Of a stretch of DNA of 64,000 bases, positions 21,163 to 43,908 are shown one piece after another. The first letter of the stretch is position 1. The number at the start of each line of letters is the position of its first letter. The notes under the pieces were generated by a model. The model saw nothing but the letters and a program-made list of their open reading frames with translations, did no database searches and had not been told where the DNA came from. The DNA is from Agromyces sp. Root81 (GTDB lineage Bacteria; Actinomycetota; Actinomycetes; Actinomycetales; Microbacteriaceae). The stretch lies in the NCBI RefSeq assembly GCF_001429165.1, contig NZ_LMIR01000001.1, positions 890,875-954,874 of the forward strand, written 5' to 3'. Position numbers and translations under genes: made by a program.

Positions 21163-22674
21163 TCAGCGACCGGAGACGGCCTCCTGGGCTGATGCGCTCA
21201 GTTCGCCCGATCGCGCCGCCGCCAACCAGGCCTCGAGGCCCGTCGCGTCGATCGGCAGTCCGCTCGAGAGCACCTCGTGGCCCGTCGCCGTCACTACCAG
21301 GTCGTCCTCGATGCGCACGCCGAGGCCGCGGAGCTCCGGCGGCACCGTCTCGTCGAAGGCGTGGAAGTACAGGCCCGGCTCGACAGTGAGGGCCATGCCC
21401 GGCTGCATCACAGCGCCCTGATAGGCGGCGTAGCTCGCCGACGCGCAGTCGTGCAGGTCGATGCCGAGGTGGTGCCCGACGCCGCACACGATGTAGCGGC
21501 GATGCTGCTGGCCGTCGGGAGCGAGCGCCTCGTCGACGGAGACGGGCAGCATCCCCCAGTCGTGGAGGCCCTGCGCGATGACCTCCATGCTCGCGGTGTG
21601 GAAGTCCGACCACGGCCGGCCAGGCGCGACCGCTGCGAGACCGGCACGGTGCGACGCCTCGACGAGGTCGTGCACGGCTCGCTGCGCGGTGCTGAACCGC
21701 CCGCCGGCCGGGATCGTGCGGGTGACGTCGGCGGTGAAGCCCGACCGGCGCTCGACGCCGACGTCGAGCAGCAGCAGCTCGTCGGGGCTGATGTCGCCCT
21801 CGGCGCGCACCCAGTGCAGGATCGGCGCGTGGGCGCCGGACCCCACGATCGACGCGTAGCCCGGACCGTTGCCGACCGTGCGCGCGTAGCGGTCAAAGGT
21901 GCCCTGCAGCCAACGCTCGCCGCCCCATTCGATGGCCGAGGAGAGTTCGCGCGCCATCGCTGCGAAGCCCTGCTCGGTCGAGGCGACGGCGGCCGCGAGT
22001 TCGGCGACCTCCCAATCGTCCTTGATCATGCGGAGCTCGGCGAGCACGCGGGCGAGGTCGGCGGAGCGCGACCGTCCGTAGAGGGCCGCGGCGGCGGGCC
22101 CGGCCTGCGCGGGTGTCCCCGCCGTCAGGGTGCCGTCGCGCAGCACGAGTTCCTCGATGCGGCGCGTGCGGATGTCGAGCGCATCGGCGTACTCGGCGAG
22201 ACCGGGCATCGGCCCGACCCAGAGTTCGCCTCGGAGCGGGTCGGCGTGGAACCCGGCATCGCCCGGACGCGCGGGGGCGGGCAGGTACAGGGTGGCGTCG
22301 TGACCGCCGGGCACCGGCTCGAGCACGAGCACGGCATCCTCGATGCCGCAGCCCACGAGCCAGAGGAAGTCGCTGTCGGCGCGGAACTCGAAGGTCGTGT
22401 CGTTCGCGCGCACCGGGGCGCGGCCGGCGGCGACGGCGATCGTGCGCCCCGGCAGCGCTGCGGAGAGCCGACTCCGGTGGTGGTGCGCGGCGAGCGCGGC
22501 GCCGTCCGGGATGACCGGCGTGCGCACGGGCGTGCCCCAGCCGCTGCGCATGGACTCGTTGAACCCCGGAGACTGCGCGAGGCGGGGCATCCGCGGGTCT
22601 CGCTCGGCCGGAGCGGGCATCGATGATCCTCCCCCGCTCGCTGCGTGGGCGTGGGTGTGGGTGGGTTCGGTCAT
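21163..22674 (-). CDS. M24-family aminopeptidase P-like (Xaa-Pro aminopeptidase)
   Basis: The protein has 503 residues from ATG 22674, with AAAGGA upstream. It has an N-terminal aminopeptidase-P domain (about 40-215) and a C-terminal pita-bread domain. The metal ligands are seen in LLLLDVGVERRSGFTADVTRTIP (two Asp), CGVGHHLGIDLHD (His), LTVEPGLYF (Glu) and VRIEDDLVV (Glu). Such enzymes release an N-terminal residue before proline (X-|-Pro), which fits collagen fragments. It is last in the operon with the peptide ABC transporter and the S33 peptidase. Substrate preference is inferred. Confidence 0.85.
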   Translation of the reverse strand: MTEPTHTHAHAASGGGSSMPAPAERDPRMPRLAQSPGFNESMRSGWGTPVRTPVIPDGAALAAHHHRSRLSAALPGRTIAVAAGRAPVRANDTTFEFRADSDFLWLVGCGIEDAVLVLEPVPGGHDATLYLPAPARPGDAGFHADPLRGELWVGPMPGLAEYADALDIRTRRIEELVLRDGTLTAGTPAQAGPAAAALYGRSRSADLARVLAELRMIKDDWEVAELAAAVASTEQGFAAMARELSSAIEWGGERWLQGTFDRYARTVGNGPGYASIVGSGAHAPILHWVRAEGDISPDELLLLDVGVERRSGFTADVTRTIPAGGRFSTAQRAVHDLVEASHRAGLAAVAPGRPWSDFHTASMEVIAQGLHDWGMLPVSVDEALAPDGQQHRRYIVCGVGHHLGIDLHDCASASYAAYQGAVMQPGMALTVEPGLYFHAFDETVPPELRGLGVRIEDDLVVTATGHEVLSSGLPIDATGLEAWLAAARSGELSASAQEAVSGR

Positions 22675-22706
22675 TCCGGGTCCTTTCAAGGGCGCTGTCG
22701 GGCGCG

Positions 22707-24020
22707 TCACGGGCGCTGTCGGGTGCGCGGGGCGTGGGCCGAGCCGGCGACGCGCCGGTCGAGAGCGTCGAACAGGCGTCCGGCGACCTTTCCCGTGTGC
22801 AGTCCGTCGTGCTCGAACTCGTTGGTGATCCAGGCTTCGAGGCCGCCGACCCGTTCGACGGTGTCGAGCGAGAACGCGGCGTCCGCGTACATGTCGTCGA
22901 GGTAGACGACGGCCTCGACGGGCACGGCGTTCGCCGCGAGCCGGTCGTGGTCGTACAGTTCGATCGGCCGGGCGGTCTCGGCGAGCCGCTCGACGCCAGC
23001 GCGGAAGCCGCGCAGCGCCCGCACCTCCTCGAACATCCACGGGAAGACCATCTCGCCGGTGAAGAGCAGCGGGCGGGCGTCGGGCGCGAAGTCGGGATTG
23101 TCGGCACGTGCCCGCTCGGCCGCCCACGCGGTGGGGCCGGGGCCGTAGATGCTCTCCTGCAGGGCGATGAAGAGCGGGTTCCGATCGAACGCGGTGAGTG
23201 CGCCGACGTTCGAGCGGAAGGTCTCGCTGATGAGCGTTTCGCCGGCGTCGGCGAACGCCTCGTCGAACACCCAGTGCACCCGGTCGAAGCCCGGGGCCAT
23301 GCCGAAGTCGAAGCCGAGGGTCTGCAGGCGCTGCACGGTGAGCCGGTCGCCGTCGGGGAGGCGCACGTCGCCGGCGTCGAGCACATCGGCGACCCGCGCG
23401 ATGCGCTCGGTCAGATGCGGCAGCCGCTCGGCGAACCGGCGGTTCTTCGCCCGCACGCGGGGGAAGGTGCGAGCGTAGACGTCGTCGGCCGACGGGTCGA
23501 GGCTCGGCAGCCCTCCGGCGATCGCCGAGGCCGTGATCGCCTCGGGCGCCACCGAGAGGTAGTGCAGGGTGAGGAAGCCGCCGTAGCTCTGGCCGAGCGT
23601 CCACCACGGCCGACCGTCGTAGTGCGCGTGTCGCAGCGCCTCGAGGTCGCGCACGATGGAGTCGGCCCGGTGCAGGGCCAGGATCCTCGCCGATGCGTCG
23701 GCGGTGAGCCCCTCGAGCTGCCGACCCTCGATGGGGGTCGAGCGGCCGGTCCCCCGTTGATCGGGCAGCACCACGCGGAACCGGGCGAGCGCCTCGTCGA
23801 GGAAACCGTCACGGCCGAGCGGCCGCGGCGACTTGCCGCCGGGCCCGCCCTGCAGGTAGACGAGCACCGGCAGGTCCTCGTCGCGGCGCGCGGCGTCGAC
23901 GAGCTCGCGTGCGAAGAGGCGGATCGTCGGCCCGTCGGGGTCGGCCCAGTCGAGCGGGACGTCGAGCCACAGCTCGCGGGCCACGACATCCGAGCCGATC
24001 GGATACCAGCGCGCGCTCAT
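22707..24020 (-). CDS. S33 prolyl aminopeptidase-like alpha/beta hydrolase
   Basis: The protein has 437 residues from ATG 24020, whose ATGA overlaps the permease stop. Features are the oxyanion-hole region VYLQGGPGGKSP (residues about 54-65), the nucleophile elbow GQSYGG (Ser145) and a late NEFEHDGLHTG segment that should supply the catalytic His. This GGPG plus GxSYGG pattern is that of proline iminopeptidases, which release N-terminal proline, and some accept hydroxyproline. Its translational coupling to the transporter strongly suggests it processes imported proline-rich peptides. Confidence 0.85.
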   Translation of the reverse strand: MSARWYPIGSDVVARELWLDVPLDWADPDGPTIRLFARELVDAARRDEDLPVLVYLQGGPGGKSPRPLGRDGFLDEALARFRVVLPDQRGTGRSTPIEGRQLEGLTADASARILALHRADSIVRDLEALRHAHYDGRPWWTLGQSYGGFLTLHYLSVAPEAITASAIAGGLPSLDPSADDVYARTFPRVRAKNRRFAERLPHLTERIARVADVLDAGDVRLPDGDRLTVQRLQTLGFDFGMAPGFDRVHWVFDEAFADAGETLISETFRSNVGALTAFDRNPLFIALQESIYGPGPTAWAAERARADNPDFAPDARPLLFTGEMVFPWMFEEVRALRGFRAGVERLAETARPIELYDHDRLAANAVPVEAVVYLDDMYADAAFSLDTVERVGGLEAWITNEFEHDGLHTGKVAGRLFDALDRRVAGSAHAPRTRQRP

Positions 24021-24982
24021 CGGGTCGCCGTCCGCACCCGCGAGTCGAGCAACGCGTACGTCGTGTCGACGACGAGATTCGAGACGACGACGAAGACGCC
24101 GCCGAGGAGGACGATCGCGATCACCACCGGTCGATCCTGCATGGCGACCGACGTCACCGCGAGGCTGCCGACGCCGAGCAGGCCGAAGACCTGCTCGATC
24201 ACGATGACGCCGCCGAGCATGAGCCCGATGTCGATGCCCAGCTGGGTGACGAGTGGCGGCATCGCACTGCGGAACGCGTGCACGTACGTCACGCGGCGTT
24301 CGTCGACGCCCTTGGCGCGAGCGGTGCGGATGTAGTCCTGGCCGAGCACCTCGAGCATCTGCCCCCGCGTCAGCCGCGCGTACACGGCGGCCACGACGAG
24401 CGCGAGCGTCAACCACGGCAGCAGCAGGTGCCAGGCCCACTGCAGCGGGCTCTGCTCGAACGGCACGTAGCCGCTCGGGGGGAACAGCATGAACCCGAGC
24501 TTCGTCGGCACGAAGTACAGCAGGTACAGCGCGAGCATGCCGAGCACGAAGGTCGGGAAGCTGATGCCGACGATCGCGAAGCCCTGTCCGAGCCGGTCGC
24601 GCACCGAGCCCGGATGCTTCGCCGAGACGATGCCGATGGGGATGCCGATCGCGAGCCAGAAGACCATGCCGCCGAAGACGAGGGACATGGTGACCGGGAT
24701 GCGCGAGACGACGAGCTCCGAGACCGGCATGCTCGAGCGGTAGGAGTAGCCGAGGTCGCCCTGCAGGAGGTTGCCGATGAAGGTCACGTACTGCTCGGTG
24801 ATCGGGCGGTCGAGCCCGAGGTTCGCGCGGATCTGCGCCATGAGCTCCTCGGTCGCCTTGTCGCCCGCGATGATGCGGGCGGGGTCCGACGGCGAGACGT
24901 AGAAGAGCATGAACACGAACACGCTCAGGAGGAACAGCACGAGCACGCCGAAGGCGATGCGGGACAGGATGAACCGGGTCAT
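24017..24982 (-). CDS. Peptide ABC transporter permease (DppB/OppB type)
   Basis: The protein has 321 residues from ATG 24982 (ATGA overlap with the previous gene). It has six hydrophobic segments and the family EAA-type loop QDYIRTARAKGVDERRVTYVHAFRSAM. Its N-terminal membrane segment (RFILSRIAFGVLVLFLLSVFVFML) is typical of DppB. It forms the channel with the DppC-type partner encoded upstream. Confidence 0.93.
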   Translation of the reverse strand: MTRFILSRIAFGVLVLFLLSVFVFMLFYVSPSDPARIIAGDKATEELMAQIRANLGLDRPITEQYVTFIGNLLQGDLGYSYRSSMPVSELVVSRIPVTMSLVFGGMVFWLAIGIPIGIVSAKHPGSVRDRLGQGFAIVGISFPTFVLGMLALYLLYFVPTKLGFMLFPPSGYVPFEQSPLQWAWHLLLPWLTLALVVAAVYARLTRGQMLEVLGQDYIRTARAKGVDERRVTYVHAFRSAMPPLVTQLGIDIGLMLGGVIVIEQVFGLLGVGSLAVTSVAMQDRPVVIAIVLLGGVFVVVSNLVVDTTYALLDSRVRTATR

Positions 24983-25926
24983 GCGCGCTTGCCTTTCGAG
25001 ACGGCGGCGGGGTCGAGTGCGTCGCGGAGGCCGTCGCCGAGCAGGTTGAATGCGAGGGTCAGTGCGAGCAGGGCGCCGCCGGGCACGACGACCATCCACC
25101 ACGCCACGAGGTAGAGGGAGCCGTTCGCAGCATCCGCCAGCATGTTGCCCCAGCTGGGCGTGGGCGGCACGATGCCGAGGCCGAGGAACGAGAGCGTCGC
25201 CTCGAACACGATCGCCGCCGGGATCATGAGCGTCGTGTAGACGATGATCGGCACGACCAGGTTGGGCAGGATGTCGCGGAACATGATCGACGTGCGCGAT
25301 GCGCCGAGCGAGCGGGCCGCCTCGACGAACTCTCGATGGCGGAGGGCCAGCACCTGTCCGCGGATGACGCGGGCGAGGCCCGTCCAGCTGAAGAACACGA
25401 TCACCGCGATCGACAGGCTCAGGCTCGGGCCGAGCACCGAGACGAGGGCGATCGCGCAGAGCAGGAACGGCACGCTCATGACGAGGTCCATGGTGCGGCT
25501 GAGCACCGTGTCGACGACCCCGCCCGAGAACCCGGAGATCGTGCCGATCGCGATGCCGATCACCGACGCCACGATCGAGGCGAGCACGCCGACCAGGAGG
25601 GACACCTGCGCACCGTAGGCGAGGCGCACGAGCACATCGCGTCCGAGCTGGTCGGTGCCGAGCAGGAACTCGGAGTTCGGACCCACCGGGATCCCCTCGG
25701 GCGTGAGCCCGGTCTCGCGGAACTGCTCGGTCGGGCCGTGACCGGTCCACGCCGCGATGAGCGGGGCGCAGAGCGCGAACGCGATGATCAGGAGGATCGC
25801 GATCATCGAGGCGATGCTCGCGGGGTCGCGCAGCAGCCGGGTGAGCGTGAGCCGACCGGAGCCGCGCGCCTGCACCTCGGTCGAGGCGCGCGCCGCAGCC
25901 GCGGGGGTCTTGGGCATGAGGCTCAC
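24979..25926 (-). CDS. Peptide ABC transporter permease (DppC/OppC type)
   Basis: The protein has 315 residues from GTG 25926 (GTGA overlap with the ATPase stop). A cytoplasmic N-terminus is followed by a membrane segment at about 38-58, then a GTDQLGRDVLVRLAYGAQVSL motif and the permease loop VEAARSLGASRTSIMFRDILPN. It is the partner of the 24017-24982 permease. Confidence 0.93.
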   Translation of the reverse strand: MSLMPKTPAAAARASTEVQARGSGRLTLTRLLRDPASIASMIAILLIIAFALCAPLIAAWTGHGPTEQFRETGLTPEGIPVGPNSEFLLGTDQLGRDVLVRLAYGAQVSLLVGVLASIVASVIGIAIGTISGFSGGVVDTVLSRTMDLVMSVPFLLCAIALVSVLGPSLSLSIAVIVFFSWTGLARVIRGQVLALRHREFVEAARSLGASRTSIMFRDILPNLVVPIIVYTTLMIPAAIVFEATLSFLGLGIVPPTPSWGNMLADAANGSLYLVAWWMVVVPGGALLALTLAFNLLGDGLRDALDPAAVSKGKRA

Positions 25927-27824
25927 GAGGCGACCTCCACGGCGATGCGATCGGCGGCGTGCCGATCGGCGGGGTGCCCGGATACGGGCTGTTGGCCGGC
26001 GCCGGCCACCGACAGCGGCAGCAGACGGCGATCGCGCGGCTCTCTCGGGATCTCGGGTGCGGCCGCGGCGAGCAGGCGCCGGGTGAACGGCTGCTGCGGG
26101 TCGTTCCAGACCTCGTCGGCGGTGCCGAGCTCGACGATGCGCCCGCCCTCCATCACGGCGATGCGATCGCAGACGTGGCGGACGACGGCGAGGTCGTGCG
26201 AGATGAACAGATAGGTGAGGCCGAGCCGGCGCTGCAGCTCGTCGAGGAGGTTCAGCACCTGCGCCTGGATCGACACGTCGAGCGCCGAAACCGGCTCGTC
26301 GAGGATCACGAGCTCGGGGTTCAGGGCGAGCGCCCGCGCGATGCCGATGCGCTGCCGCTGCCCGCCCGAGAACTGCGACGGGAAGCGGTTGTAGTGCTCG
26401 GGGTTCAGCCCGACGAGCTCCATGAGCTCCTGCACCTTCGCCTGTCGTTCTGCGCCGCTCGCGAGCCGGTGGATGCGGAACGGGTCGCCGATGATCGAGC
26501 CGACGCGACGGCGGGGGTTCAGCGAGCCGAATGGATCCTGGAAGACGAGCTGCACCCGGCGACGCAGATCACGCCACTGAGCGCGATCGAGGTTCCCCGT
26601 CGGGGCGCCGTCGAACTCGACGGTGCCCGCGGTCGGCGCGACGAGCCCGGCGATCGCACGGGCGAGGGTGGTCTTGCCGCAGCCGCTCTCGCCCACGAGG
26701 CCGAGCGTCTCGCCCCGCCGCACCTCGAGCGAGATGTCGTCGAGGACGACGCGCGGCTCCCCACGGCGCTGCGGGAACGTGAGCCGGAGCCCGTCGACCT
26801 TCACGATGGGGTCGTCGGGACTCGCGAGCAGGCTGGGCGGCGGGAGCACCGGCGGGTCCGGCTCCACCGGCGTCGACTCGAGCCAGCAGGCCACCTCGGT
26901 GCCGTCGTCGTAGTGGCGAACGGGCGGCTTCGTGCCGCAGATCGACATCGCGTCCGGGCAGCGGTCGCGGAACGCGCAGCCCTCGGGCGGTGCGAGCAGG
27001 CTCGGTGGGCGCCCCCCGATGGGCACGAGCGGCGTGCCCGGCTCCCGGTTGAACGACGACGACCGCAGGAGCCCCGCGGTGTAGGGGTGTGCTGGGCCGC
27101 ACAGCACCGCATCGGCGGCCCCGAGTTCCATGCGACGACCGCCGTACATGACCATGACCCGATCGGCGACGCGCGAGAGCACGCCGAGATCGTGGCTGAT
27201 CATGAGCACGGTCGTGCCGAACTCGCTGCGCATCTCGCCGAGCAGGTCGAGGATCTGCGCCTGCACGGTCGAGTCGAGGGCGGTGGTCGGCTCGTCGGCG
27301 ATGATGAGCGCCGGTCCGAGCGAGAGGCCCATCGCGATCATCACGCGCTGTCGCATGCCCCCCGAGAACTGGTGCGGGTACGCGTCGAAGCGTGCCGCGG
27401 CATCCGGGATGCGCACCCGGTCGAGCAGGTCGATCGCACGCGCCTTCGCGGCCTTCGTGCTGACCTTCTCGTGCGCCTGGATCTGCTCGACGATCTGCCA
27501 GCCCACCGTGTACTGGGGGTGCAGGCTCGAGAGCGGGTCCTGGAAGATCATGCTGATCTCCCGCCCGCGCACCGAGCGCAGCTGCTCGGGCGCGAGGGAG
27601 AGCAGGTCGCGGTCGCGGAACAGCACGGAGCCGCTGGTGCGAGCGCCGGGCACGAGGCCCATGATCGACTGCACCATCACGGACTTTCCGGAGCCGGATT
27701 CGCCGACGACGCCGAAGAACTCGCCCTCGTTCACGGCGAACGAGACGTGCTGCACCGCATGCACGGTGCCGTCTTCTGTTGGGATGTCGACGGCGAGGTC
27801 GCGCACGTCGAGGAGGATCGTCAT
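25923..27824 (-). CDS. Fused peptide ABC transporter ATPase (DppD-DppF in one chain)
   Basis: The protein has 633 residues with two complete ATP-binding cassettes. The first has Walker A GESGSGKS (41-48) and signature FSGGMRQR. It is followed by the oligopeptide-transporter C-terminal motif with CAFRDRCPDAMSICG and VACWLE, which may hold an Fe-S cluster or Zn. The second has GESGCGKTTLARAIAG and FSGGQRQRIGIARAL. A single chain therefore supplies both ATPases of the importer. The start at ATG 27824 lies after a hairpin. Confidence 0.93.
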   Translation of the reverse strand: MTILLDVRDLAVDIPTEDGTVHAVQHVSFAVNEGEFFGVVGESGSGKSVMVQSIMGLVPGARTSGSVLFRDRDLLSLAPEQLRSVRGREISMIFQDPLSSLHPQYTVGWQIVEQIQAHEKVSTKAAKARAIDLLDRVRIPDAAARFDAYPHQFSGGMRQRVMIAMGLSLGPALIIADEPTTALDSTVQAQILDLLGEMRSEFGTTVLMISHDLGVLSRVADRVMVMYGGRRMELGAADAVLCGPAHPYTAGLLRSSSFNREPGTPLVPIGGRPPSLLAPPEGCAFRDRCPDAMSICGTKPPVRHYDDGTEVACWLESTPVEPDPPVLPPPSLLASPDDPIVKVDGLRLTFPQRRGEPRVVLDDISLEVRRGETLGLVGESGCGKTTLARAIAGLVAPTAGTVEFDGAPTGNLDRAQWRDLRRRVQLVFQDPFGSLNPRRRVGSIIGDPFRIHRLASGAERQAKVQELMELVGLNPEHYNRFPSQFSGGQRQRIGIARALALNPELVILDEPVSALDVSIQAQVLNLLDELQRRLGLTYLFISHDLAVVRHVCDRIAVMEGGRIVELGTADEVWNDPQQPFTRRLLAAAAPEIPREPRDRRLLPLSVAGAGQQPVSGHPADRHAADRIAVEVAS

Positions 27825-27844
27825 TGGGGTCCCTCGATCTGACC

Positions 27845-27870: not shown

Positions 27871-27900
27871 GATACCTGATGATTCGGATGATGCGGATGG

Positions 27901-29664
27901 CTACTTCGTGAGCCAGACGTTCGTCCAGTCGCCGTTCTGGCTCTGGGCGTACGGCTCGAATCCGCCGACGCGGGCCGAGTGGTAGTTCGACTTCAGCCGG
28001 TAGGCGATGCTGACGATCGGCGCGTCGGCCATGACGGCCTCGTCGACCTGGTGCCAGAGGTCGGCCGCCTCATCGGGCGTCTCCGCGGCGAGGGCCTCGG
28101 CGGCGAGCTCGTTCGCCGCGTCGCTGTTGAAGTCGACGTAGTTGTACGACTGGGGCGTGCCGTCGAAGACGAACTGCGGCTGGAAGACGCTGCGCGCTGC
28201 GCCGCCCTGCCAGTCGGGCGACCAGCCGACGAGCGCGATGTCCCAGGCGCCCGAGCTCGCATTGTCGCGGTTCGTCATGAAGTTCGCGTAGTAGTCGGTC
28301 GGCGGCACGGGCGTCAGCTCGACGGTGATGCCGGCGCGCTCGAGGCTCGCCTGCACCGTCTGGGCGATGTCGGGCTGCGTGCCGACGTTGCGGTACGGCA
28401 TCTTGAGGGTGAGTCCGTCGGGGTAGCCCGCCTCGGCGAGAAGCTCCTTCGCCTTCTCGGGATCGCCCTTGCCGCCCTCGGTCGCGTACTGGTCGGACTC
28501 CTGGTAGCCGAGGATGCCGGGGCCGAAGATGCCGTTCGTGACGCCGGCGAGGTCGGCGCCGCCCATGGTCTGCACGACGGCCGACTTGTCGACCGCGTAC
28601 TGCAGTGCCTGGCGGACCTCGAGCTTGGCGAGCGCGCCCTCGTTGTTGGTCGACGCGGTGTTCATCCACATGAACTGGTCGACGCCGCCGTTCTCCATGG
28701 TCGAGAACTTCTCGTCGTTCGCCGCCTTGAGCTGCTGGATGTTCGCGGGACTCGGGGAGAGGTCGAAGAGCATGTCGGCCGAGCCGGCCTGCAGCTGCTG
28801 CATCGCGGCGTCGCCCTCGACGCCCATCGTCATCTCGATGCCGTCGACGTAGGCCTTGCGGAGCGGGTCGCTCTCGGGGTCCCACGCGGGGTTGCGCTCG
28901 AGCACGAGCTTCGCGTCGGGCGTGTACTCGGCGACCTGGTAGGGGCCGGACGACACGAAGCCGCGACGGTACTCGGGCGAGTCGGGCAGCGCGTCGAGCG
29001 CCTCGATCGGCGCCGGGTCGGCCGCGTCGAGCGAGAGCATGAACGGGAAGTCGCTCGCGGGCTCGACGAGGGTGAACTCGATCGTGCGGTCGTCGGGCGT
29101 CTGGATGCCGGAGATCTCGTTGCCCTCGATGTACTCCTTCATCGGGCCGACCTCGGGGGCGACGGCGGCGAAGCCGGTGCAGAACTCGTCCATGCCGGCG
29201 ATGAGTCCTTGGAAGTAGCCGGCCAGGGCGCCCGAGATGTGCGGGTTGCAGAGGCGCTCGATGCCGCGGGCGACGTCGCTCGCGACGATCGGGCGGGCGC
29301 CGTCGGGCGCGCCCCACGTGACGCCGTCGCGAAGGGTCACGGTGTAGGTGAGCCCGTCGGCGCTCGGTGTGGGCACCTCCTCGACGAGGTCGGGCTGGAG
29401 CACGATGCGCTCTGCGGCGTCGTCGCTGGCCGCGTAGCTCAGCAGCGAGCGTGACACCGAGCGCATCACGTTGTAGGTCGGCACGTACGAGACGAGCTGC
29501 GGGTCGAGGTGGTCGACGTCGCCGTTCGCGAGCACCTTGAGGGTGCCGCCGGTCTGCGGTTCACCGTCGCCGGAATCGGCGCTGGGCGAAGTCGAACACG
29601 CGGTCAACGCGAGCGCCGTCGAGACGGCGAGCACCGCCGCGACGCGAAGAGTGGATCGAGCCAT
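27901..29664 (-). CDS. Peptide ABC transporter substrate-binding lipoprotein (family 5)
   Basis: The protein has 587 residues from ATG 29664, with AAAGGTG upstream. It has a signal peptide with lipobox LTAC (Cys23). The SBP family 5 fold is supported by its length and by motifs such as DVARGIERLCNPHISGAL and TVTLRDGVTWGAPDGARP. It would capture peptides outside the cell. It is the first gene of the leftward transporter-peptidase operon and its 5' side faces the 29811-29827 palindrome. Collagen-type peptides are the likely cargo by context only. Confidence 0.92.
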   Translation of the reverse strand: MARSTLRVAAVLAVSTALALTACSTSPSADSGDGEPQTGGTLKVLANGDVDHLDPQLVSYVPTYNVMRSVSRSLLSYAASDDAAERIVLQPDLVEEVPTPSADGLTYTVTLRDGVTWGAPDGARPIVASDVARGIERLCNPHISGALAGYFQGLIAGMDEFCTGFAAVAPEVGPMKEYIEGNEISGIQTPDDRTIEFTLVEPASDFPFMLSLDAADPAPIEALDALPDSPEYRRGFVSSGPYQVAEYTPDAKLVLERNPAWDPESDPLRKAYVDGIEMTMGVEGDAAMQQLQAGSADMLFDLSPSPANIQQLKAANDEKFSTMENGGVDQFMWMNTASTNNEGALAKLEVRQALQYAVDKSAVVQTMGGADLAGVTNGIFGPGILGYQESDQYATEGGKGDPEKAKELLAEAGYPDGLTLKMPYRNVGTQPDIAQTVQASLERAGITVELTPVPPTDYYANFMTNRDNASSGAWDIALVGWSPDWQGGAARSVFQPQFVFDGTPQSYNYVDFNSDAANELAAEALAAETPDEAADLWHQVDEAVMADAPIVSIAYRLKSNYHSARVGGFEPYAQSQNGDWTNVWLTK

Positions 29665-29844: not shown

Positions 29845-29850
29845 GTGTCC

Positions 29851-35404: not shown

Positions 35405-35444
35405 TAATATGTCACATATTACTGCTGTGCCTCGACGGCGGCAA
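35405..35444 (-). promoter_or_regulatory. Operator palindrome (site 2) overlapping an internal operon promoter
   Basis: TAATATGTCACATATTA (35405-35421) is a perfect 8-1-8 palindrome. On the minus strand TAATAT (35416-35421) serves as a -10, exactly 17 bases after a -35-like TTGCCG (35439-35444). Transcription would begin near 35409, about 43 bases before the deaminase ATG. The first three bases of the site on the minus strand are also the TAA stop codon of the upstream oxidoreductase gene. Confidence 0.75.
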
Positions 35445-36864: not shown

Positions 36865-37103
36865 GCCCGCACCTCCCGCTCGACTCGGTCGCCGTCGACG
36901 GCCTCCCGCTGACACGCCCGCACTCCTTCGACGCCGTTCACGGTCACGAGGCAGTCGTGGCAGACGCCGATGCCGCAGAACACGCCGCGATCGCCGGTCT
37001 GCGCCGTGCGCCACGCGGTGCGGCCGGCGCCGATGAGCACGCCGGCGATGGTCTGGCCGTCGCGTCCCTCGATCGACTCGGCGTCGACGGTGATGCGGAT
37101 CAT
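36861..37103 (-). CDS. Small (2Fe-2S) ferredoxin-like subunit of D-hydroxyproline dehydrogenase
   Basis: The protein has 80 residues from ATG 37103. Cluster ligands are Cys43, Cys48, Cys51 (GVFCGIGVCHDCLV) and Cys64 (VRACQRE). This Fer2_4-type subunit sits between the two flavin subunits, overlapping both (ATGA each side), so all three should be made in equal amount and form one complex. Confidence 0.92.
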   Translation of the reverse strand: MIRITVDAESIEGRDGQTIAGVLIGAGRTAWRTAQTGDRGVFCGIGVCHDCLVTVNGVEGVRACQREAVDGDRVEREVRA

Positions 37104-38257
37104 GCGGTCTCCTGCAGGCTGGCCCGGCTCGGGAGGAACGGGGTCGGGTCGAGGGCGGTCGGTGCGCCGAGCACGGTGTGCGCGACGAGTTCGGCGGTGG
37201 CGGGAGCGAGGCCGATGCCCGCGCCCTCGTGACCGGTCGCGTGCACGAGCCCCGAGACCTCGGGATCGGCTCCGATGACCGGGAGGTGGTCGGGCGCGTA
37301 CGGGCGGAAGCCGAAGTAGCTGCGCAGCAGGGTCGTCTGCTCGAGGAACGGGAAGAGGCGCACCGCCTTCGCCGCGATGGCTGCAGCGGGGGCAACGCCC
37401 GGGTGCTCGTCGAAGCCGACCCGCTCACGACTCGAACCGATGAGCACGGTGCCGCCCGGAGTCGACTCGACGACCGTCGAGGTCTGCAGGGCGGCGTCGC
37501 CCGAGCCCACCGCGCCGACGTAGTCGCTGTCGTACACCTTGTGGAACACGCGCTGCGGCATCGGCGTCGTGACGAGGATCACTCCCCTGCGCGGCCGGAT
37601 GTCCAGGCGGGCGCCGAGCCGGGCGGCCACCTCGCCGGCCCACGGCCCGGCGCAGTTCACGACGACGTCGGCCTCGATCGGCCCGGCCGTCGTCATCACC
37701 CCGGAGAGCCGGCCCGGCCGACCGAGCGCGCCGGTCACCTCGCCGATCACGAGTCGGGCGCCGCCGCGCACCGCCGTGTCGAGCAGGGCCTGGGTCGCCG
37801 TCGACGGCTGCACCTGGGCGTCGTCGGGATAGTGCACCGCGTGCACGACCTCGCGCGACAGGAACGGCTCGGCCGCGGCGAGCGCCGCGACATCCAGCGC
37901 CTCCGCGCGGATGCCGGTGGCCCGCTGCGCGTCGGCGAACCGCTCGAGCGCCGCCTCGCCGCCGCCGAAGGCGACGACGATGCCGCCCTTCGCCTCGAAC
38001 TCCGTCGCCGGCTGCCCGTTCGGCCGGTCGGCGTCGAGCCGCTCGGCGAGCGCGCGCCACATCGCGTTCGAGGAGACGGCGAGGTCGGCCTCGGCGCCCG
38101 GCGCCTTGTCGCTGACGAGCAGGTTGCCTTCGCAGCGACTGGATGTCTCGCCGGCCACGCCCACCCGGTCGATCACGACGACCTCCGCGCCGCCCTCGAC
38201 GAGTGCGAGCGCGCACGCGGCACCCACGATGCCCGAACCGATCACCGCGACACGCAC
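37100..38257 (-). CDS. DAO-family FAD oxidoreductase, catalytic subunit of D-hydroxyproline dehydrogenase
   Basis: The protein has 385 residues from GTG 38257, with GAGGAGG upstream. The N-terminal FAD site is VIGSGIVGAACALALVEGG, followed by RVGVAGETSSRCEGN; the late FGFRPYAPDHLPVIG and GHEGAGIGLAPATAELV are typical of glycine/D-amino-acid oxidases. It should oxidise cis-4-hydroxy-D-proline to delta1-pyrroline-4-hydroxy-2-carboxylate. Assignment rests on the linked pathway; a general D-amino-acid or proline dehydrogenase is the alternative. Confidence 0.87.
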   Translation of the reverse strand: MRVAVIGSGIVGAACALALVEGGAEVVVIDRVGVAGETSSRCEGNLLVSDKAPGAEADLAVSSNAMWRALAERLDADRPNGQPATEFEAKGGIVVAFGGGEAALERFADAQRATGIRAEALDVAALAAAEPFLSREVVHAVHYPDDAQVQPSTATQALLDTAVRGGARLVIGEVTGALGRPGRLSGVMTTAGPIEADVVVNCAGPWAGEVAARLGARLDIRPRRGVILVTTPMPQRVFHKVYDSDYVGAVGSGDAALQTSTVVESTPGGTVLIGSSRERVGFDEHPGVAPAAAIAAKAVRLFPFLEQTTLLRSYFGFRPYAPDHLPVIGADPEVSGLVHATGHEGAGIGLAPATAELVAHTVLGAPTALDPTPFLPSRASLQETA

Positions 38258-38278: not shown

Positions 38279-38989
38279 TCAACCACCGAGGTACGCCTCG
38301 ATGACACGCGGATCCTTCGCGAGTTCGGCGGCGGGCCCCTCGAGGGTCGCCCTCCCGGTCTCGACGACGTACGCGCGGTGGGCGATCTTCAGCGCTGCAC
38401 GCGCGTTCTGCTCGACGAGCAGCACGGTCGTGCCCGTCGCGTTGACCGCGGCGATGATCTCCATGACCTGCTTCACGACGAGCGGTGCGAGTCCCATCGA
38501 CGGCTCGTCGAGCAGCAGCAGCTTCGGCCCCCCGATCAGGGCCCGGCCGATCGCGACCATCTGCTGTTCGCCGCCGGAGAGCGTGCCGCCCTGCTGCGAG
38601 CGGCGCTCGGCGAGGCGCGGCATCATGGCGTACACCTCGTCGAGACGCGCTGCGATCGCCTTGGCGTCGCTCACGGTGTAGCCGCCGAGCAGCAGGTTCT
38701 CGTGCACCGTCATGGTCGAGAAGATCCGTCGTCCTTCGGGAACGTGGATGAGCCCGGCGGAGACGATGTCCCACGGCTTGGCCGTCGCGAGGTCCATCCC
38801 CTGCCAGGTCACCGAGCCCGAACGCGGGCGCACGAGCCCGGAGAGCATGTTCATGGTGGTCGACTTGCCGGCGCCGTTGTTGCCGAGCAGGCACACGATC
38901 TCGCCCTCGCCCACGGTGAAGCTCAGTTCACGGAGTGCGTGCACCCGGCCGTAGACGACATCCGCGTCCCGCACCTCGAGCGTCGTCAT
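38279..38989 (-). CDS. Branched-chain-type amino acid ABC transporter ATPase (LivF type)
   Basis: The protein has 236 residues from ATG 38989 (TGATG overlap with the LivG-type gene). It has Walker A GNNGAGKSTTM, signature LSGGEQQMVAIGRAL, Walker B LLLLDEPSMGLAP and the LivF-type HVPEGRRIFSTMTVHENLLLG. It is the second ATPase of the importer; it lies 21 bases upstream of the DAO gene, linking transport to catabolism in one transcript. Confidence 0.93.
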   Translation of the reverse strand: MTTLEVRDADVVYGRVHALRELSFTVGEGEIVCLLGNNGAGKSTTMNMLSGLVRPRSGSVTWQGMDLATAKPWDIVSAGLIHVPEGRRIFSTMTVHENLLLGGYTVSDAKAIAARLDEVYAMMPRLAERRSQQGGTLSGGEQQMVAIGRALIGGPKLLLLDEPSMGLAPLVVKQVMEIIAAVNATGTTVLLVEQNARAALKIAHRAYVVETGRATLEGPAAELAKDPRVIEAYLGG

Positions 38990-39831
38990 CACGCGTCCTC
39001 GCTCTCGTCGACGCCGAGGTAGGCCTCGATCACGGCGGGATCCCGCTTCACGACCTCGGGGGCGCCGTCGGCGATCTCCTTGCCGTAGTTCAGCACCACG
39101 ATGCGCTCGGCGAGTTCCATGACCAGTCCCATGTCGTGTTCGATGAGCACCACGGCGACGCCGAGCCCCCTGATCTTGCGGATGAGCCGCATGAGCGCCT
39201 GCTTCTCGTTGAAGTTCAGGCCCGCGGCGGGTTCGTCGAGCAGCAGGAGCTTCGGGCTCGTGGCCAGCGCCCTGGCGATCTCGACCCGCCGCTGCTCGCC
39301 GTACGGCAGCTGGGTGACGTAGAGCTGCTCGTCGTCCTCGAAGCCGACGAAGTCGAGCCATCCCCTCGCCTCCCGGACGCACGCCGCCTCGGCACGGCGG
39401 TAGCCGGGCGTGTGCAGCAGGGTCGCCCAGAATCCCTCGCGGAGGTTCGCGTGCATCGCGGTGGTGACGTTCTCGAGCACCGAGAGCTCGCGGAACAGCC
39501 GGAGGTTCTGGAACGTGCGGGCCATGCCCCATTTCGTCACCCGCGACGGGAGCACCCGGTAGAGGCCGAAGCTCTGGAGCAGGTTCACGAGTCCGAGCCT
39601 GCGCCAGAGTTCGGGTACGGCCCGCACGATCGCCTTGCCGTCGAAGACCACCGCGCCGGCGGTCGGCAGGTAGAAGCCGGAGATGCAGTTGAACGCGCTC
39701 GTCTTGCCGGCGCCGTTCGGGCCGATGACGGCGAGGATCTCGCCCTCGCGGACCTCGAAGCTGAGTCCGTCGACGGCCGTGACCCCGCCGAACTGCAGCC
39801 TGAGATCGCGGACCTCGAGCAGGGCGCTCAT
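38989..39831 (-). CDS. Branched-chain-type amino acid ABC transporter ATPase (LivG type)
   Basis: The protein has 280 residues from ATG 39831 (ATGA overlap). It has Walker A GPNGAGKTSAFN and the LivG-specific MARTFQNLRLFRELSVLENV. The signature is replaced by LPYGEQRRVEIARAL, as usual in LivG, followed by LLLLDEPAAGLNF. A stretch of about 20 residues before MARTFQN is longer than in E. coli LivG. Confidence 0.93.
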   Translation of the reverse strand: MSALLEVRDLRLQFGGVTAVDGLSFEVREGEILAVIGPNGAGKTSAFNCISGFYLPTAGAVVFDGKAIVRAVPELWRRLGLVNLLQSFGLYRVLPSRVTKWGMARTFQNLRLFRELSVLENVTTAMHANLREGFWATLLHTPGYRRAEAACVREARGWLDFVGFEDDEQLYVTQLPYGEQRRVEIARALATSPKLLLLDEPAAGLNFNEKQALMRLIRKIRGLGVAVVLIEHDMGLVMELAERIVVLNYGKEIADGAPEVVKRDPAVIEAYLGVDESEDA

Positions 39832-41000
39832 GCGCGGTCTCCTTCGTGTGCGTCGGTCGTCGGCGTGCCGTCGACCGACTCCATGATGCTCGCCGGCACG
39901 GCCGTCGCCTCGGTGAACGCCGGCGGGGTCGGACGGCTGCGCCGCAGCCAGGGCAGCACGGCGGTGGCCGGCCAGAGCCCCGACGGGCGGAACAGCATGA
40001 CGACGACGAGCAGCACGCCGAAGATGAGGTAGCGCCATTCGGCGAAGTCGCGCAGCAGCTCGGGTGCCAGCGACACGAACAGCGCGCCGATGATGACACC
40101 GGGCGTGGAGCCCATGCCGCCGAGCACCACGGCCATCAGGATGAGGGCCGAGTAGAGGAACTGGAAGCTGTTCGGGCTGATCGCCGACAGGTGCGTGGCC
40201 ATCAGCTGACCGGCCATGCCGGCCCAGACGGCGCCGATGATGTACGCCGAGATCTTGGCGATGTAGGTGTTGATACCCATCGCCTCAGCGGCGTCCTCGT
40301 CGTCGCGCACGGCCTTCCACGCCCGGCCGAGTCGGCCTTTCGCGAGGCGCCCGGCGCCGATCACGCCGACGACGATCACGACGAGCGCGACGAAGTAGTA
40401 GAACACCACGCGCTCGGGGAAGTCGATGCCGAGCAGCGAGAAGCCGTCGTCGAAGCTCCACGGCCCGAAGCTCCAGCTGGGGATGCCGTGGATGCCGGAG
40501 GGGCCGCCCGTGATCTTCAGGTTGTTGGCCGTGATGCGGATGATCTCGCCGAACCCGAGGGTGACGATCGCGAGATAGTCGCTGCGGAGGCGCAGGGTCG
40601 GTGCTCCGATGATGATGCCCGCCGTGATGCAGGCGATGATCGTCGCGATGAGCGCGGCCCACATCGGCCAGCCGAGCACCGTCGTGAAGATGCCGGAGAC
40701 GTAGGCGCCGACCGCGAAGAACGCGATGTAGCCGAGGTCGAGGAGCCCGGCGTAGCCGACCACGACGTTCAGGCCCATGCAGAGCATCACGTAGATGAGC
40801 GCACTCGTCGCGATCGACATCGTGTACCGGGAGGCATCCATGAACGGCAGCACGGCGACCAGGAGGACAGCCAGGAGACCGAGCGCGCGCATGAAGCCGC
40901 GCTGGGAGGTGAAGACGCCCTTCGGCGGCTGCGGCCGCTCGAACAGGGGCGCGGGGGCACGCAACGGCACGTGCTTCAGGGCGAGGTCGAGATCGCGCAC
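39828..41000 (-). CDS. Branched-chain-type amino acid ABC transporter permease (LivM type)
   Basis: About 390 residues from GTG 41000, chosen because AGAGGA sits eight bases upstream and it clears the LivH-type stop by four bases. A long cytoplasmic N-terminus is followed by about nine membrane segments and the LivM motif MGINTYIAKISAYIIGAVWAGMAGQLMA. It ends with a Thr/Asp-rich cytoplasmic tail. Confidence 0.9.
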   Translation of the reverse strand: MRDLDLALKHVPLRAPAPLFERPQPPKGVFTSQRGFMRALGLLAVLLVAVLPFMDASRYTMSIATSALIYVMLCMGLNVVVGYAGLLDLGYIAFFAVGAYVSGIFTTVLGWPMWAALIATIIACITAGIIIGAPTLRLRSDYLAIVTLGFGEIIRITANNLKITGGPSGIHGIPSWSFGPWSFDDGFSLLGIDFPERVVFYYFVALVVIVVGVIGAGRLAKGRLGRAWKAVRDDEDAAEAMGINTYIAKISAYIIGAVWAGMAGQLMATHLSAISPNSFQFLYSALILMAVVLGGMGSTPGVIIGALFVSLAPELLRDFAEWRYLIFGVLLVVVMLFRPSGLWPATAVLPWLRRSRPTPPAFTEATAVPASIMESVDGTPTTDAHEGDRA

Positions 41001-41004
41001 CAGG

Positions 41005-41895
41005 TCACATCCTCTCAACGACGCGGGCACCGAGCAGGCCCGTGGGTTTCAGCGTCAGGAACAGGATGAGGAACCCGAAGGCGAACACATCCCGCCATTC
41101 GCCGCCGAACCACGCCGAGCCGAAGGACTCGAGCATGCCGAGCAGCACGCCGCCGAGCATGGCGCCGTACAGGTTGCCGATGCCGCCGATGACCGCGGCG
41201 GTGAACGCCTTCAGCCCGATGATGAAGCCCATGAGGAAGTCGATCGACCCGTAGTAGGCCCCGGCCATGACACCGGCCGCTCCGGCGAGCGCGGAGCCGA
41301 TGAAGAACACCATCGCGATCACCCGGTCGACGTTGACGCCCATGAGCTGCGCGCCCGTCGGGTCGAGGGCGATCGCCCGCATCGCGCGGCCCTGCCGCGT
41401 GCGCTCCACGATGTGGGCGAGCACGAGCATGAGCACGGCGGCGATGACGACGAGCACGATCTGCGATGCCGTGACGCGCATGCCGAGCACGTCGAACCCG
41501 CTGGACTCCAGGCGGATGGGGAACGCCTCGGGGTTCGGGCCGAAGATCTGGCGCACGCCGTACTCGAGGGTGAACGAGACGCCGATCGCCGTGATGAGCA
41601 CCGCCAGCCGCGGGCTCCTGCGGAGCGGGCGGTACGCGATGCGTTCGATGCCCACGCCGATGAGGCCGGTGGTGACCATCGACAGCAGGAGCACGACGAG
41701 CAGGAGCGGGATCGACGTCTCGTTCGAGATGCCGAACGCCGAGAGCGTGAAGAACCCGACGAACGCGCCGAGCATGTAGATGTCGCCGTGCGCGAAGTTC
41801 AGGAGCTTGATGATCCCGTAGACCATGCTGTAGCCGAGCGCGACGAGGGCGTAGAACGATCCGACGATGAGACCGTTCCAGATGAGCTGCATCAT
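41005..41895 (-). CDS. Branched-chain-type amino acid ABC transporter permease (LivH type)
   Basis: The protein has 296 residues from ATG 41895 or ATG 41892 (MMQLIWNGLIVGSFYALVALG). It has LivH hallmarks GYSMVYGIIKLLNFAHGDIYMLGAF and MGVNVDRVIAMVFFIGSALAG, with eight or so membrane segments. Related Liv-type importers carry branched-chain amino acids, urea or amides; hydroxyproline as cargo is inferred from the operon. Confidence 0.92.
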   Translation of the reverse strand: MMQLIWNGLIVGSFYALVALGYSMVYGIIKLLNFAHGDIYMLGAFVGFFTLSAFGISNETSIPLLLVVLLLSMVTTGLIGVGIERIAYRPLRRSPRLAVLITAIGVSFTLEYGVRQIFGPNPEAFPIRLESSGFDVLGMRVTASQIVLVVIAAVLMLVLAHIVERTRQGRAMRAIALDPTGAQLMGVNVDRVIAMVFFIGSALAGAAGVMAGAYYGSIDFLMGFIIGLKAFTAAVIGGIGNLYGAMLGGVLLGMLESFGSAWFGGEWRDVFAFGFLILFLTLKPTGLLGARVVERM

Positions 41896-41951
41896 TGCAG
41901 AGGAGTTCCTTCCGACGAGTCGGGGCGGGGCCGGAGCCCCGCCCCGATGCG

Positions 41952-43133
41952 TCAACCCTGCAGGTCGTCCTCGAGGACGAACGCGCCGGTCGCGGGGTCG
42001 ATGGCGACGATCACGAATCCGCCGCCCGACAGGGTGTGGGTGTCCGTGAACGTGAGCGGTCCGGCGAAGGTGTCGAAGTCCTTCAGGCCCTCGAGACCGG
42101 CCACGACGTTGTCGAACTCGGTGTCGCCGGCATCCTCGATCGCCTGCGCCATCACGCGCACGGCGTCGTACGCCTGGGTCGAGTAGGGCCCGGGCGGGTC
42201 GCCGGCGAGCTCCTCGTAGTCGGCGATCCACTGGTCGGCACCCTCGATCATGTCGGGCGTCTGGGTGAAGGTGCCGACGACGTTGTCGATGTAGCCCTCA
42301 CCTGCGATCTCGGCGAACTTGGCGTCGACCGAGCCGTCGGCGACGAGGAACACGCCCTGGAACCCGGCGTCCTGCGACTGCCGGGCGATGAGGCCGCCCT
42401 CCTGGTAGTAGCCGGTCCAGTAGACGAGTGCGGGCTGCTGGCTCGCGAGCGTCGTCGCGACCGCGGAGTAGTCGTTCTCACCGGGGGTGATGGTCTCGTG
42501 CGCGACGACCTCGAGCCCGGCCGCGGTGGCCTGCTCGGTGAACGCCTCGGCGAGGTCGGCCGAGTAGCTCGTGGCATCGTCGACGACCGCGACGTTCGTC
42601 GCGCCGATCTGCTTGGCGTAGGTCACGGCGGCCTCGGCCTGCTGGTCGCCGGTGCCGTTGATGAGGAAGACGCCGGGCAGGCCCTGGTCGACGAGTTCGT
42701 TGGAGTTCGCCGCCGGGATCACCATCGGGATGCCCGCTTCGTCGAAGATCGGCAGCGTCGGCAGCGTCGCGCCCGAACAGTAGCCGCCGACCGAGGCGAC
42801 GATGCCGTCGGTGACGAGCTTGTTGGCGCCCGAGACGGCCGTCGTGGCATCGCATGCGTCGTCCTCGACGAGGAGCTCGAGGTCGCGGCCGAGCACGCCG
42901 CCCGCCGCGTTGATCTCGTTCACGGCGAGCTGGGCGCCGTTCTGCATGTAGACGCCGAAGGCCGATTCACTGCCCGAGAAGGGCGCGAGCATGCCGATCT
43001 TGATGGGTCCGTCATCGGTGGCTTCCGAGCCTCCGCCGGCGAGACCGCTCGAGCATCCCGCGGTCAGCGCGAGGACGCCGGCTGCGACGGCGACGTGGAG
43101 GAGGCGCTTGCGGCGCCGAGATCCGAACTGCAT
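41952..43133 (-). CDS. Branched-chain-type ABC transporter substrate-binding lipoprotein
   Basis: The protein has 393 residues from ATG 43133, with GGAGAG upstream. It has a signal peptide and lipobox ending at Cys27 (LTAGC). The periplasmic-binding-protein type I fold is seen in IKIGMLAPFSGSESAFGVYMQNG, NEINAAGGVLGRDLEL and YCSGATLPTLPIFDEAGIP. It is the first gene of the long transport-catabolism operon; its promoter contains operator site 3. Free hydroxyproline or proline is the probable ligand. Confidence 0.9.
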   Translation of the reverse strand: MQFGSRRRKRLLHVAVAAGVLALTAGCSSGLAGGGSEATDDGPIKIGMLAPFSGSESAFGVYMQNGAQLAVNEINAAGGVLGRDLELLVEDDACDATTAVSGANKLVTDGIVASVGGYCSGATLPTLPIFDEAGIPMVIPAANSNELVDQGLPGVFLINGTGDQQAEAAVTYAKQIGATNVAVVDDATSYSADLAEAFTEQATAAGLEVVAHETITPGENDYSAVATTLASQQPALVYWTGYYQEGGLIARQSQDAGFQGVFLVADGSVDAKFAEIAGEGYIDNVVGTFTQTPDMIEGADQWIADYEELAGDPPGPYSTQAYDAVRVMAQAIEDAGDTEFDNVVAGLEGLKDFDTFAGPLTFTDTHTLSGGGFVIVAIDPATGAFVLEDDLQG

Positions 43134-43175
43134 GTGACTCTCCTTCGAGTACGACAGTGCCTCATCGCCGGGCGG

Positions 43176-43214
43176 CGATATGTGACATATTACTGCCAGC
43201 GACGCTGCGCGCAA
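43176..43214 (-). promoter_or_regulatory. Operator palindrome (site 3) overlapping the promoter of the transport-catabolism operon
   Basis: TAATATGTCACATATCG as read on the minus strand (43176-43192). Its TAATAT (43187-43192) is a good -10, 16 bases after a -35-like TTGCGC (43209-43214). Transcription would begin near 43180, about 47 bases before the ATG at 43133. The GntR/FCD regulator gene ends just upstream at 43246. Confidence 0.75.
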
Positions 43215-43245
43215 GTCGGATCACCACGACGGGCGAGCGCCGGAT

Positions 43246-43908
43246 TCAGTCCTCGTGCTCGCCGCTCCAGATGCCGCCGACGTGCCCGATGTGGCGGCGC
43301 ATCAGCTCGGCCGCGGCATCGCCCTCGCCGTCGAGGAGGAGCTGCACGAGCTCGGCGTGCTCCAGCGCCGACTCGGTGAGCGCGCCCGTCTCCGCGAGCT
43401 CGACGAGCCCCGTCAGGCGCGTCTGCTGACGCAGCTCGCCGACCAGGGACACGAGGAACTGGTTGCCCGTCAGCTCGAGCAGCGTCAGGTGGAAGGTCGT
43501 GTCGGCCTCGAGGTAGTCCTGGAACCGGCCTTCGTCGCCGGCATGCACGATCTCCGCGGCGAGCCCGCGCAGGCGCTCGGCCGCCTCATCGGTGACGTGT
43601 CCGGCGAGCTGGCGCATCGGCGGCACCTCGAGCAGCTGCCGCACCTCGCGCAGCTGGCGGAGCTCGTCGAGCGACACCTCGGTCACGCGGAACCCGCGGT
43701 TGCGCATCGGTGCGAGGAACCCGCGGCGGGCGAGGTTCAGCATCGCCTCGCGCACGGGCGTCGCGCTGACGCCGAACTCGGCGGCCATCGTGGGAACGGT
43801 CAGCACGGCACCCGGCTCGTACTCCCCCGCGACGATGCGCGACGACATGGCGCGCTCCACCTGCTCGCGCAGGCTCACGACCTCCGCCAGCAGCGACGAG
43901 TCATTCAT
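43246..43908 (-). CDS. GntR-family (FadR/FCD subfamily) transcriptional regulator
   Basis: The protein has 220 residues from ATG 43908, with AGGGGAG upstream. It has an N-terminal winged helix (about 13-75, with VPTMAAEFGVSATPVREAMLNLARRG) and a C-terminal FCD ligand domain (about 80-212). The usual metal-binding residues are visible in EADTTFHLTL, LEHAELV and MRRHIGH. Such regulators normally bind short palindromes and are released by an acid or amino-acid ligand. The three nearby TAATATGTnACATATTA-type sites are the obvious targets, with hydroxyproline or a pathway intermediate as ligand (inference). Confidence 0.9.
   Translation of the reverse strand: MNDSSLLAEVVSLREQVERAMSSRIVAGEYEPGAVLTVPTMAAEFGVSATPVREAMLNLARRGFLAPMRNRGFRVTEVSLDELRQLREVRQLLEVPPMRQLAGHVTDEAAERLRGLAAEIVHAGDEGRFQDYLEADTTFHLTLLELTGNQFLVSLVGELRQQTRLTGLVELAETGALTESALEHAELVQLLLDGEGDAAAELMRRHIGHVGGIWSGEHED

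Follow-up and report, generated by a model that had tools for sequence, protein, structure and literature searches.

One of the most direct questions raised by the genome of Agromyces sp. Root81 is whether the genes between positions 21163 and 43908 of the 64,000-nucleotide stretch analyzed here (contig NZ_LMIR01000001.1, positions 890,875 to 954,874; the window) form one system for the use of hydroxyproline-containing peptides, or two sets of genes that merely stand next to each other. One half of this locus encodes a peptide ATP-binding cassette (ABC) importer, Opp, together with an alpha/beta hydrolase resembling proline iminopeptidases (S33) and an aminopeptidase-P-like M24 metallopeptidase. 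The other half is composed of genes for hydroxyproline (Hyp) catabolism, a Liv-type ABC importer and a GntR regulator, and a divergent pair encoding an OCD-family protein and a second proline-racemase family enzyme (PR2) separates the two. We regard it as likely, with a probability of roughly 0.78, that the locus represents one regulon for Hyp-containing peptides, which in this genome would be fed by collagen; in many relatives the regulon is probably fed by plant cell walls. Gene content, operator distribution, linkage and co-occurrence were observed directly, and we infer the enzyme activities, the inducer, the binding of the regulator and the substrate. The host genome comprises 4,158,469 bases (4.16 Mb) in 5 contigs, with the window on contig C1. 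Comparisons were made with 60 Agromyces genomes and with 219 genomes of the family; G and L numbers denote the genomes and loci of relatives, and "own" the window genome.

The first argument for a common control comes from a palindrome, ATATGTSACATAT, which occurs in three perfect copies in the window, against an expectation of 0.02 per shuffled window when up to 2 mismatches are permitted. In the whole genome these three are the only copies with at most 1 mismatch, and the reversed pattern used as control gave 0. Operator 1 (ATATGTGACATAT, 29813..29825) is situated in the divergent promoter region of oppA and the OCD gene, 149 bases from the former and 25 bases from the start of the latter; operator 2 (ATATGTCACATAT, 35407..35419) precedes the deaminase gene hypD by 42 bases; operator 3 (ATATGTGACATAT, 43178..43190) is found in the promoter of the Liv operon, 45 bases from the binding-protein gene and beside the GntR gene. 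Hence, a predicted operator, recognized from sequence only, precedes the catabolic operon as in HypR-type hydroxyproline regulons. The palindrome shares ATGTCAC with the HypR motif of Streptomyces coelicolor, CTNTGC(A/C)ATGTCAC (PMC6608401).

For the search in relatives, a matrix of 19 bases was trained on 26 distinct sites located upstream of DHb, HypD and livK genes, and it was applied with a threshold of 16.5; promoters of opp, OCD and collagenase genes were excluded from the training. Two of the three window sites belong to the training set. Operator 1 does not, but over the 19 bases it is identical to the livK site. At the threshold, the matrix detects exactly three sites in the window (operators 1, 2 and 3 with scores of 34.1, 39.5 and 34.1, respectively), 0 in 482,090 control positions from 24 loci, 0 in 305,745 more from 39 loci and 0 in 495,233 positions of reversed sequence. 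Among the family operons that have the window's transporter type (type I) and are accompanied by Hyp or PR2/OCD genes in their loci, 10 of 12 show an oppA site, with scores from 16.9 to 37.1; counted once per genome, these are own, G013, G020, G028, G033, G066, G145, G262, G210 and G146. In three Leucobacter loci and in G129, where a Hyp gene is not found nearby, the scores of the oppA promoters range from -0.3 to 1.9. When the palindrome itself was searched in the loci scanned with up to 2 mismatches, 61 site rows were obtained, some genomes being represented twice, and for 55 of them a query-found gene is situated at a distance of -60 to 260 bases. The remaining 6 comprise three near the start of a GH127 gene (L232, L230, L223), one further upstream of such a gene (L235) and two unassigned sites, those of L222 (at 106) and L239 (at 17293).

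The position of operator 1 permits another explanation, namely that it controls only the reductase-like OCD/PR2 pair, while the peptide operon of the host answers to another signal. The much shorter distance to the OCD gene would fit this assumption, as would the fact that G004 and G015, which have no opp genes there, still possess a site next to OCD. Furthermore, oppA and OCD have the site in common in own, G013, G020, G028, G033 and G066, so that these genomes alone cannot separate the two genes. However, operator 1 overlaps not only a promoter-like GTGACA-16-TACGAT towards OCD, but also TGGACA-18-TAATAT towards oppA, and in other loci the oppA site is away from OCD; it is not shared with OCD in G145, G262, G210 and G146. 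We therefore consider a control restricted to the reductase pair improbable.

The reading as one regulon fed by collagen receives further support from a collagenase. An M9 collagenase is encoded in the host genome; its domains are M9_N, PKD and PPC, and it has, as judged by eye, a signal peptide. It is the sole M9 match in the genome and is encoded on contig C2, unlinked to the window; a collagenase inside the cluster, as in Colwellia, was not found. Within Agromyces, M9 is present in 6 of the 60 genomes (own, G013, G020, G028, G033, G066), and these are exactly the genomes with the full peptide block (Fisher 2e-8), the latter being judged via the S33 search and the neighborhoods examined. In a tree of ffh, which covered 35 of the 60 genomes and 3 outgroup rows, the M9/block genomes form two clades, own/G020/G033/G066 and G013/G028, and well supported branches force at least 2 changes. 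In the sister pair G018/G032 the M24 gene is present, and the rest of the block and M9 are absent. Moreover, the M9 promoters contain matrix sites of 17.0 to 18.1 in all 6 genomes, each the best in its stretch of 9 to 14 kb, approximately 120 to 140 bases before the presumed start and inside a block conserved among the six. This is suggestive of a regulon-type site before the collagenase gene.

The two halves are also linked beyond Agromyces. With a presence threshold of E of 1e-60 or better, S33 was detected in 44, HypE (the epimerase) in 51 and both in 32 of the 219 family genomes (Fisher 1e-15, a value not corrected for kinship). In 20 of the 219 genomes, belonging to nine genera, S33 and HypE are at most 25 kb apart, and 15 of these 20 show one colinear run of opp genes, S33, M24, GntR, DHb, DHs, DHa, HypD, HypE and ALDH. 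The transporter in these places is of two types: type I, that of the window, has the gene order A-DF-C-B and, within the family, an OppA that matches the window's at a level of at least 61%; type II has the order A-C-B-D-F and an OppA at 30-36% to the window's. Within Agromyces, the opp-S33-M24 block is situated between OCD and rpsP in own, G013, G020, G028, G033 and G066, and M24 alone occupies that site in G011, G018 and G032.

It could be argued that the halves are nevertheless independent neighbors, i.e. that a general oligopeptide importer and its proline peptidases came to be placed by a Hyp cluster through chance or through a common preference for settling at the ffh-rpsP site. Indeed, Leucobacter carries opp-S33-M24 between ffh and rpsP with no Hyp genes nearby, and the block comes and goes within Agromyces. 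The repeated colinear run, the occupation of one place by two different transporter types, and oppA sites that are not divergently shared with any query-found Hyp gene in G210, G145, G262, G146, G103 and G268 argue against such independence. In view of the operator and of a linkage that recurs among relatives, we assign chance adjacency a very low probability, the lowest among the explanations discussed here. The first-pass annotation had joined the halves by position only and had proposed a neighborhood search in relatives. This search did find them together, and the coupling is now also based on a rare common operator, on S33-HypE linkage in nine genera with two transporter types and on the exact co-occurrence with M9, but the halves were likewise found apart.

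Accordingly, it must be mentioned that several observations weigh against one regulon for collagen peptides. In 6 of the 10 positive loci, oppA and OCD have their site in common. Two Microbacterium loci (L109, L115) possess Hyp-like genes, but their oppA promoters reach no more than 9.0, and among alphaproteobacteria 11 of 11 oppA promoters remain below 16.5. The Leucobacter loci L107, L111 and L112 have the block without the operator and without a Hyp gene in the stretch examined, the peptide block is missing from the site in G004, G010, G015 and G034, where Hyp or PR2/OCD genes persist, and 19 of the 51 HypE genomes have no S33. Concerning the collagenase, the six M9 genomes in two clades represent few independent events, and M9 scored above the cut-off in only 1 of the 219 family genomes, the window's own, so that the type I genomes G129, G145, G146, G210 and G262 lack it. 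In the own genome, the collagenase site deviates at 3 bases from the palindrome. When the collagenase and opp promoters were compared directly over 22 bases, the match exceeded all 60 shuffles in G013 alone, and in the five remaining genomes 6 to 42 of the 60 shuffles did as well. Because of this weak direct comparison we relied on the matrix and graded the collagenase site no higher than suggestive. The terms "complete" and "one locus" in the first-pass annotation went too far, since relatives can have the halves separately and the collagenase gene is on a different contig.

The type II loci point to a second source of peptides. In 21 of 23 of them (L223-L227, L229, L230, L232, L233, L235, L237, L240, L241, L243, L246, L261-L266) a gene for a GH127 beta-L-arabinofuranosidase is located directly before oppA, with the domains confirmed in 3 of 3 tested cases, and most of these operons continue with proline peptidases and Hyp genes. 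No signal peptide was seen by eye in the three GH127 N-termini inspected. The promoters of the GH127-first operons reach 16.5 in 12 of 21 cases (320 bases tested), with 9 below, and in the two type II genomes without an adjacent GH127 gene (G103, G268) the oppA promoter reaches it in both. GH127 beta-L-arabinofuranosidases are part of a system whose targets are plant hydroxyproline-rich glycoproteins (PMC7263609, PMC10850190), and the natural reading is that the type II loci would import plant-wall peptides.

This raises the possibility that the window's regulon, too, obtains its peptides from plant hydroxyproline-rich glycoproteins such as extensins and arabinogalactan proteins and not from collagen. 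The habitat of Agromyces is soil, and the GH127 gene stands at the head of the operon in nearly all type II relatives. Nevertheless, no GH127 was found in the host genome or in the examined stretch of any type I locus, and the host possesses an M9 collagenase with a regulon-type site before it. We consider a plant source unlikely for this genome, though somewhat less so than a control of the OCD pair alone, and because GH127 was not found in the host, the plant-wall reading is kept mainly for the relatives. The collagen assignment of the first-pass annotation thus appears likely for Agromyces sp. Root81, but it does not extend to the family in general, where many related loci have the other transporter type and a GH127-headed operon. 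Tentatively, and with rather less than even odds, one may imagine a single modular Hyp-peptide regulon of the family that was retooled for animal or plant protein. In such a module the GntR operator, the peptidases and Hyp catabolism would stay constant, and the front end would consist either of M9 and the type I importer or of an apparently intracellular GH127 and the type II importer for arabinosylated plant-wall peptides. If this were true, hydroxyproline glycopeptides would be imported and then stripped inside the cell, a route for which our literature search found no description.

In the regulon that we favor for Agromyces sp. Root81, the HypR-like GntR repressor (43246-43908) would bind to ATATGTSACATAT and would be released when hydroxyproline or a product of it is present. 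The M9 collagenase would cleave collagen outside the cell into Gly-X-Y peptides, as bacterial collagenases trim Gly-X-Y repeats (PMC13284217). These peptides would be taken up by Opp (24017-29664). Inside the cell, the M24 enzyme would remove Gly from Gly-Pro-Hyp and the S33 enzyme would cleave the resulting Pro-Hyp, activities that we take to be those of aminopeptidase P and proline iminopeptidase, respectively. Free 4-hydroxyproline would finally be converted by the epimerase, the D-hydroxyproline dehydrogenase, the deaminase and the aldehyde dehydrogenase to alpha-ketoglutarate, consistent with the known 4-Hyp route, in which the substrate is epimerized, oxidized, deaminated and again oxidized to alpha-ketoglutarate (PMC6608401).

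Much of this resembles the HypR regulon of S. coelicolor (PMC6608401) with regard to the spacing of the metal site in the GntR/FCD regulator, the ATGTCAC of the operator, the epimerase, the three-part dehydrogenase and the DHDPS-type deaminase. There, HypR represses an M9 collagenase gene as well as the Hyp operon, and an M9 gene is also present in our host genome. However, a peptide importer, a proline peptidase, a reductase/PR2 pair and a Liv importer, all of which are predicted at the window locus, are absent from the regulon table of that paper, and its main text has no word beginning with "peptide". Proteobacterial HypR regulons (PMC5343134) are similar in the GntR control of hypE, hypO, hypD and hypH and, in some species, in an OCD-family gene, but no peptide importer or peptidase is named among their members in the passages covered. 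The idea of a single locus has a precedent in the collagen utilization cluster of Colwellia (PMC7883544), for which M9 collagenase, transport, proline peptidases and Hyp catabolism were likewise proposed as one system. This cluster is gammaproteobacterial, with a TonB-dependent receptor, an MFS transporter and the collagenase inside, whereas the window is characterized by ABC import, an unlinked collagenase and parts joined by an operator. The type II relatives may be compared with the GH127/GH121 system of Bifidobacterium longum (PMC7263609, PMC10850190), in which a GH127-family enzyme and an ABC importer serve the use of material from plant hydroxyproline-rich glycoproteins. That system imports arabino-oligosaccharides, whereas in the type II relatives GH127 is accompanied by an importer of the peptide type and by Hyp catabolism, and the window is without GH127.

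A search of titles and abstract openings, mostly of non-subscription literature, did not reveal a description of this gene combination in Actinobacteria. As far as this search showed, the connection of an importer and two peptidases to such a regulon through the operator, the exact match to the collagenase within Agromyces and, among relatives, the variant with GH127 are new. In the published hydroxyproline pathways that we found, free hydroxyproline is the starting point, and less has been written on how bacteria use collagen or plant extensins by way of peptides. With a precise operator, a named gene set and a clean pattern of collagenase presence and absence, this route can be put to the test in soil bacteria that grow in culture. 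The relatives linked to GH127, in turn, hint at a way in which plant-wall protein could be handled under the same control circuit. In addition, likely roles can be proposed for the peptide importer and the two peptidases, which automatic annotation had left general.

Regarding the individual genes, the order, strands and coordinates given by the first-pass annotation for the leftward opp-S33-M24 operon and for the Hyp/Liv genes were confirmed and agree with the domain matches; its list was incomplete insofar as the divergent OCD and PR2 genes inside the span were not named. Reading frames were backed by domain matches, since codon-position analysis picked the wrong frame for some genes. Among the matches listed for the S33, M24, OCD, PR2, HypE and ALDH proteins, no NCBIfam model scored above its curated cut-off.

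All genes of the peptide half are on the minus strand. The operon begins with oppA (27901..29664), whose product is a peptide-binding protein (SBP_bac_5, PF00496) and, given the N-terminal LALTAC seen by eye, a probable lipoprotein. It is followed by genes for OppDF, the fused peptide ABC ATPases (25923..27824; two ABC_tran stretches and oligo_HPY), and the permeases OppC (24979..25926; PF00528/PF12911) and OppB (24017..24982; PF00528/PF19300). The oppB and S33 genes overlap by 4 bases (ATGA), and the M24 gene starts approximately 33 bases past S33. The S33 protein (22707..24020) shows the alpha/beta hydrolase fold with the nucleophile motif; against the prolyl aminopeptidase equivalog TIGR01249 it reached 31.6 bits, below the cut-off of 259.75, and the best stretch covers only residues 51-163 of the 437-aa protein for a model of 307 positions. 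The M24 protein (21163..22674) has both the AMP_N and M24 domains (PF05195, PF00557), as in aminopeptidase P (M24B). Its best NCBIfam match is Xaa-Pro aminopeptidase (PRK10879, 193.6 bits, below the cut-off of 465), and its top-scoring solved chains are aminopeptidase P.

Some loci contain parts of this half in other settings. Very short S33 matches of 43 residues in G011 and 42 residues in G064 are perhaps relics, and an S33 gene stands between ffh and rpsP without a query-found transporter or M24 in L213, L214, L216, L217, L218 and two Leucobacter loci (L113, L114). In Rhizobium (L119, L120, L122, L123, L125, L146) a proline-racemase family gene is situated directly before oppA-DF-C-B-S33; the one checked for motifs, that of L119, has Thr in the second motif and is in this respect like trans-3-hydroxyproline (t3Hyp) dehydratases. 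An M24 gene follows S33 in both loci examined for it, Rhizobium L119 and Mesorhizobium L118.

The genes of the Hyp half are likewise on the minus strand. In the direction of transcription, the GntR/FCD regulator gene (43246..43908; PF00392, PF07729) is followed by the Liv-type importer (38279..43133; Pfam matches), which consists of a binding protein (41952-43133), two permeases and two ATPases. Next are DHb, the beta-like subunit of the D-hydroxyproline dehydrogenase (37100..38257; DAO), DHs, its small 2Fe-2S subunit (36861..37103; Fer2_4), and DHa, its alpha-like subunit (35419..36864; Pyr_redox_2 and Fer2_BFD), and then HypD, a putative deaminase of the DHDPS family (34451..35365; PF00701). 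HypE (33382..34383) is a 4-hydroxyproline epimerase-like protein of the proline-racemase family (PF05544, 421.6 bits) with Cys/Cys in the motifs MCGHGT and SPCGTG, although its score is below every NCBIfam cut-off among the matches listed. The ALDH gene (31850..33343; PF00171) encodes an aldehyde dehydrogenase family protein which, from its position, is probably the alpha-ketoglutarate semialdehyde dehydrogenase. By domain matches, the predicted epimerase, the three dehydrogenase subunits and the DHDPS-type deaminase thus occur together, as in HypR-type hydroxyproline regulons. In the regulator, Asp136, His140, His184 and His206 have the spacing given for Asp138, His142, His186 and His208 of HypR (PMC6608401), as compared by residue positions of the unaligned sequences. 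The Liv-type importer is absent between GntR and DHb in G004, G011, G028 and G034, where the catabolic genes are kept.

The pair between the halves is encoded on the plus strand. The OCD/mu-crystallin family gene (29851..30792, PF02423; a GTG start at 29845 is possible) would encode a pyrroline-2-carboxylate-reductase-like protein, with a Pyr2C/Pip2C reductase model as best NCBIfam match (184.9 bits, below the cut-off of 322), and its end is the start of the PR2 gene (30792..31775; PF05544). By score, PR2 is nearest to trans-3-hydroxyproline dehydratases (NCBIfam 279.4 bits, below the cut-off of 540), and its best-scoring solved chain is 6r76. We nevertheless rejected this as a firm name. PR2 has Cys in both catalytic motifs (ACGHGT, SPCGSGT), as have its counterparts in Microbacterium commune L115 and G146 L231, and t3Hyp dehydratases carry Thr at the second catalytic position (PMC4113996), so that a racemase or epimerase activity is equally possible. 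The pair probably handles 3-hydroxyproline or D-proline; 3-hydroxyproline also occurs in collagen (PMC9166765) and is a possible substrate of PR2 and its reductase partner. Agromyces G006 possesses two PR2-OCD pairs (L063-L066; PR2 at 77 and 74% identity) and gave no HypE-type match in the same search. In G017 (L071/L072), PR2 was matched as two pieces, and in another search as one stretch over 98% of its length; because both pieces are in one open frame of 401 codons, this is probably an extra stretch and not a broken gene.

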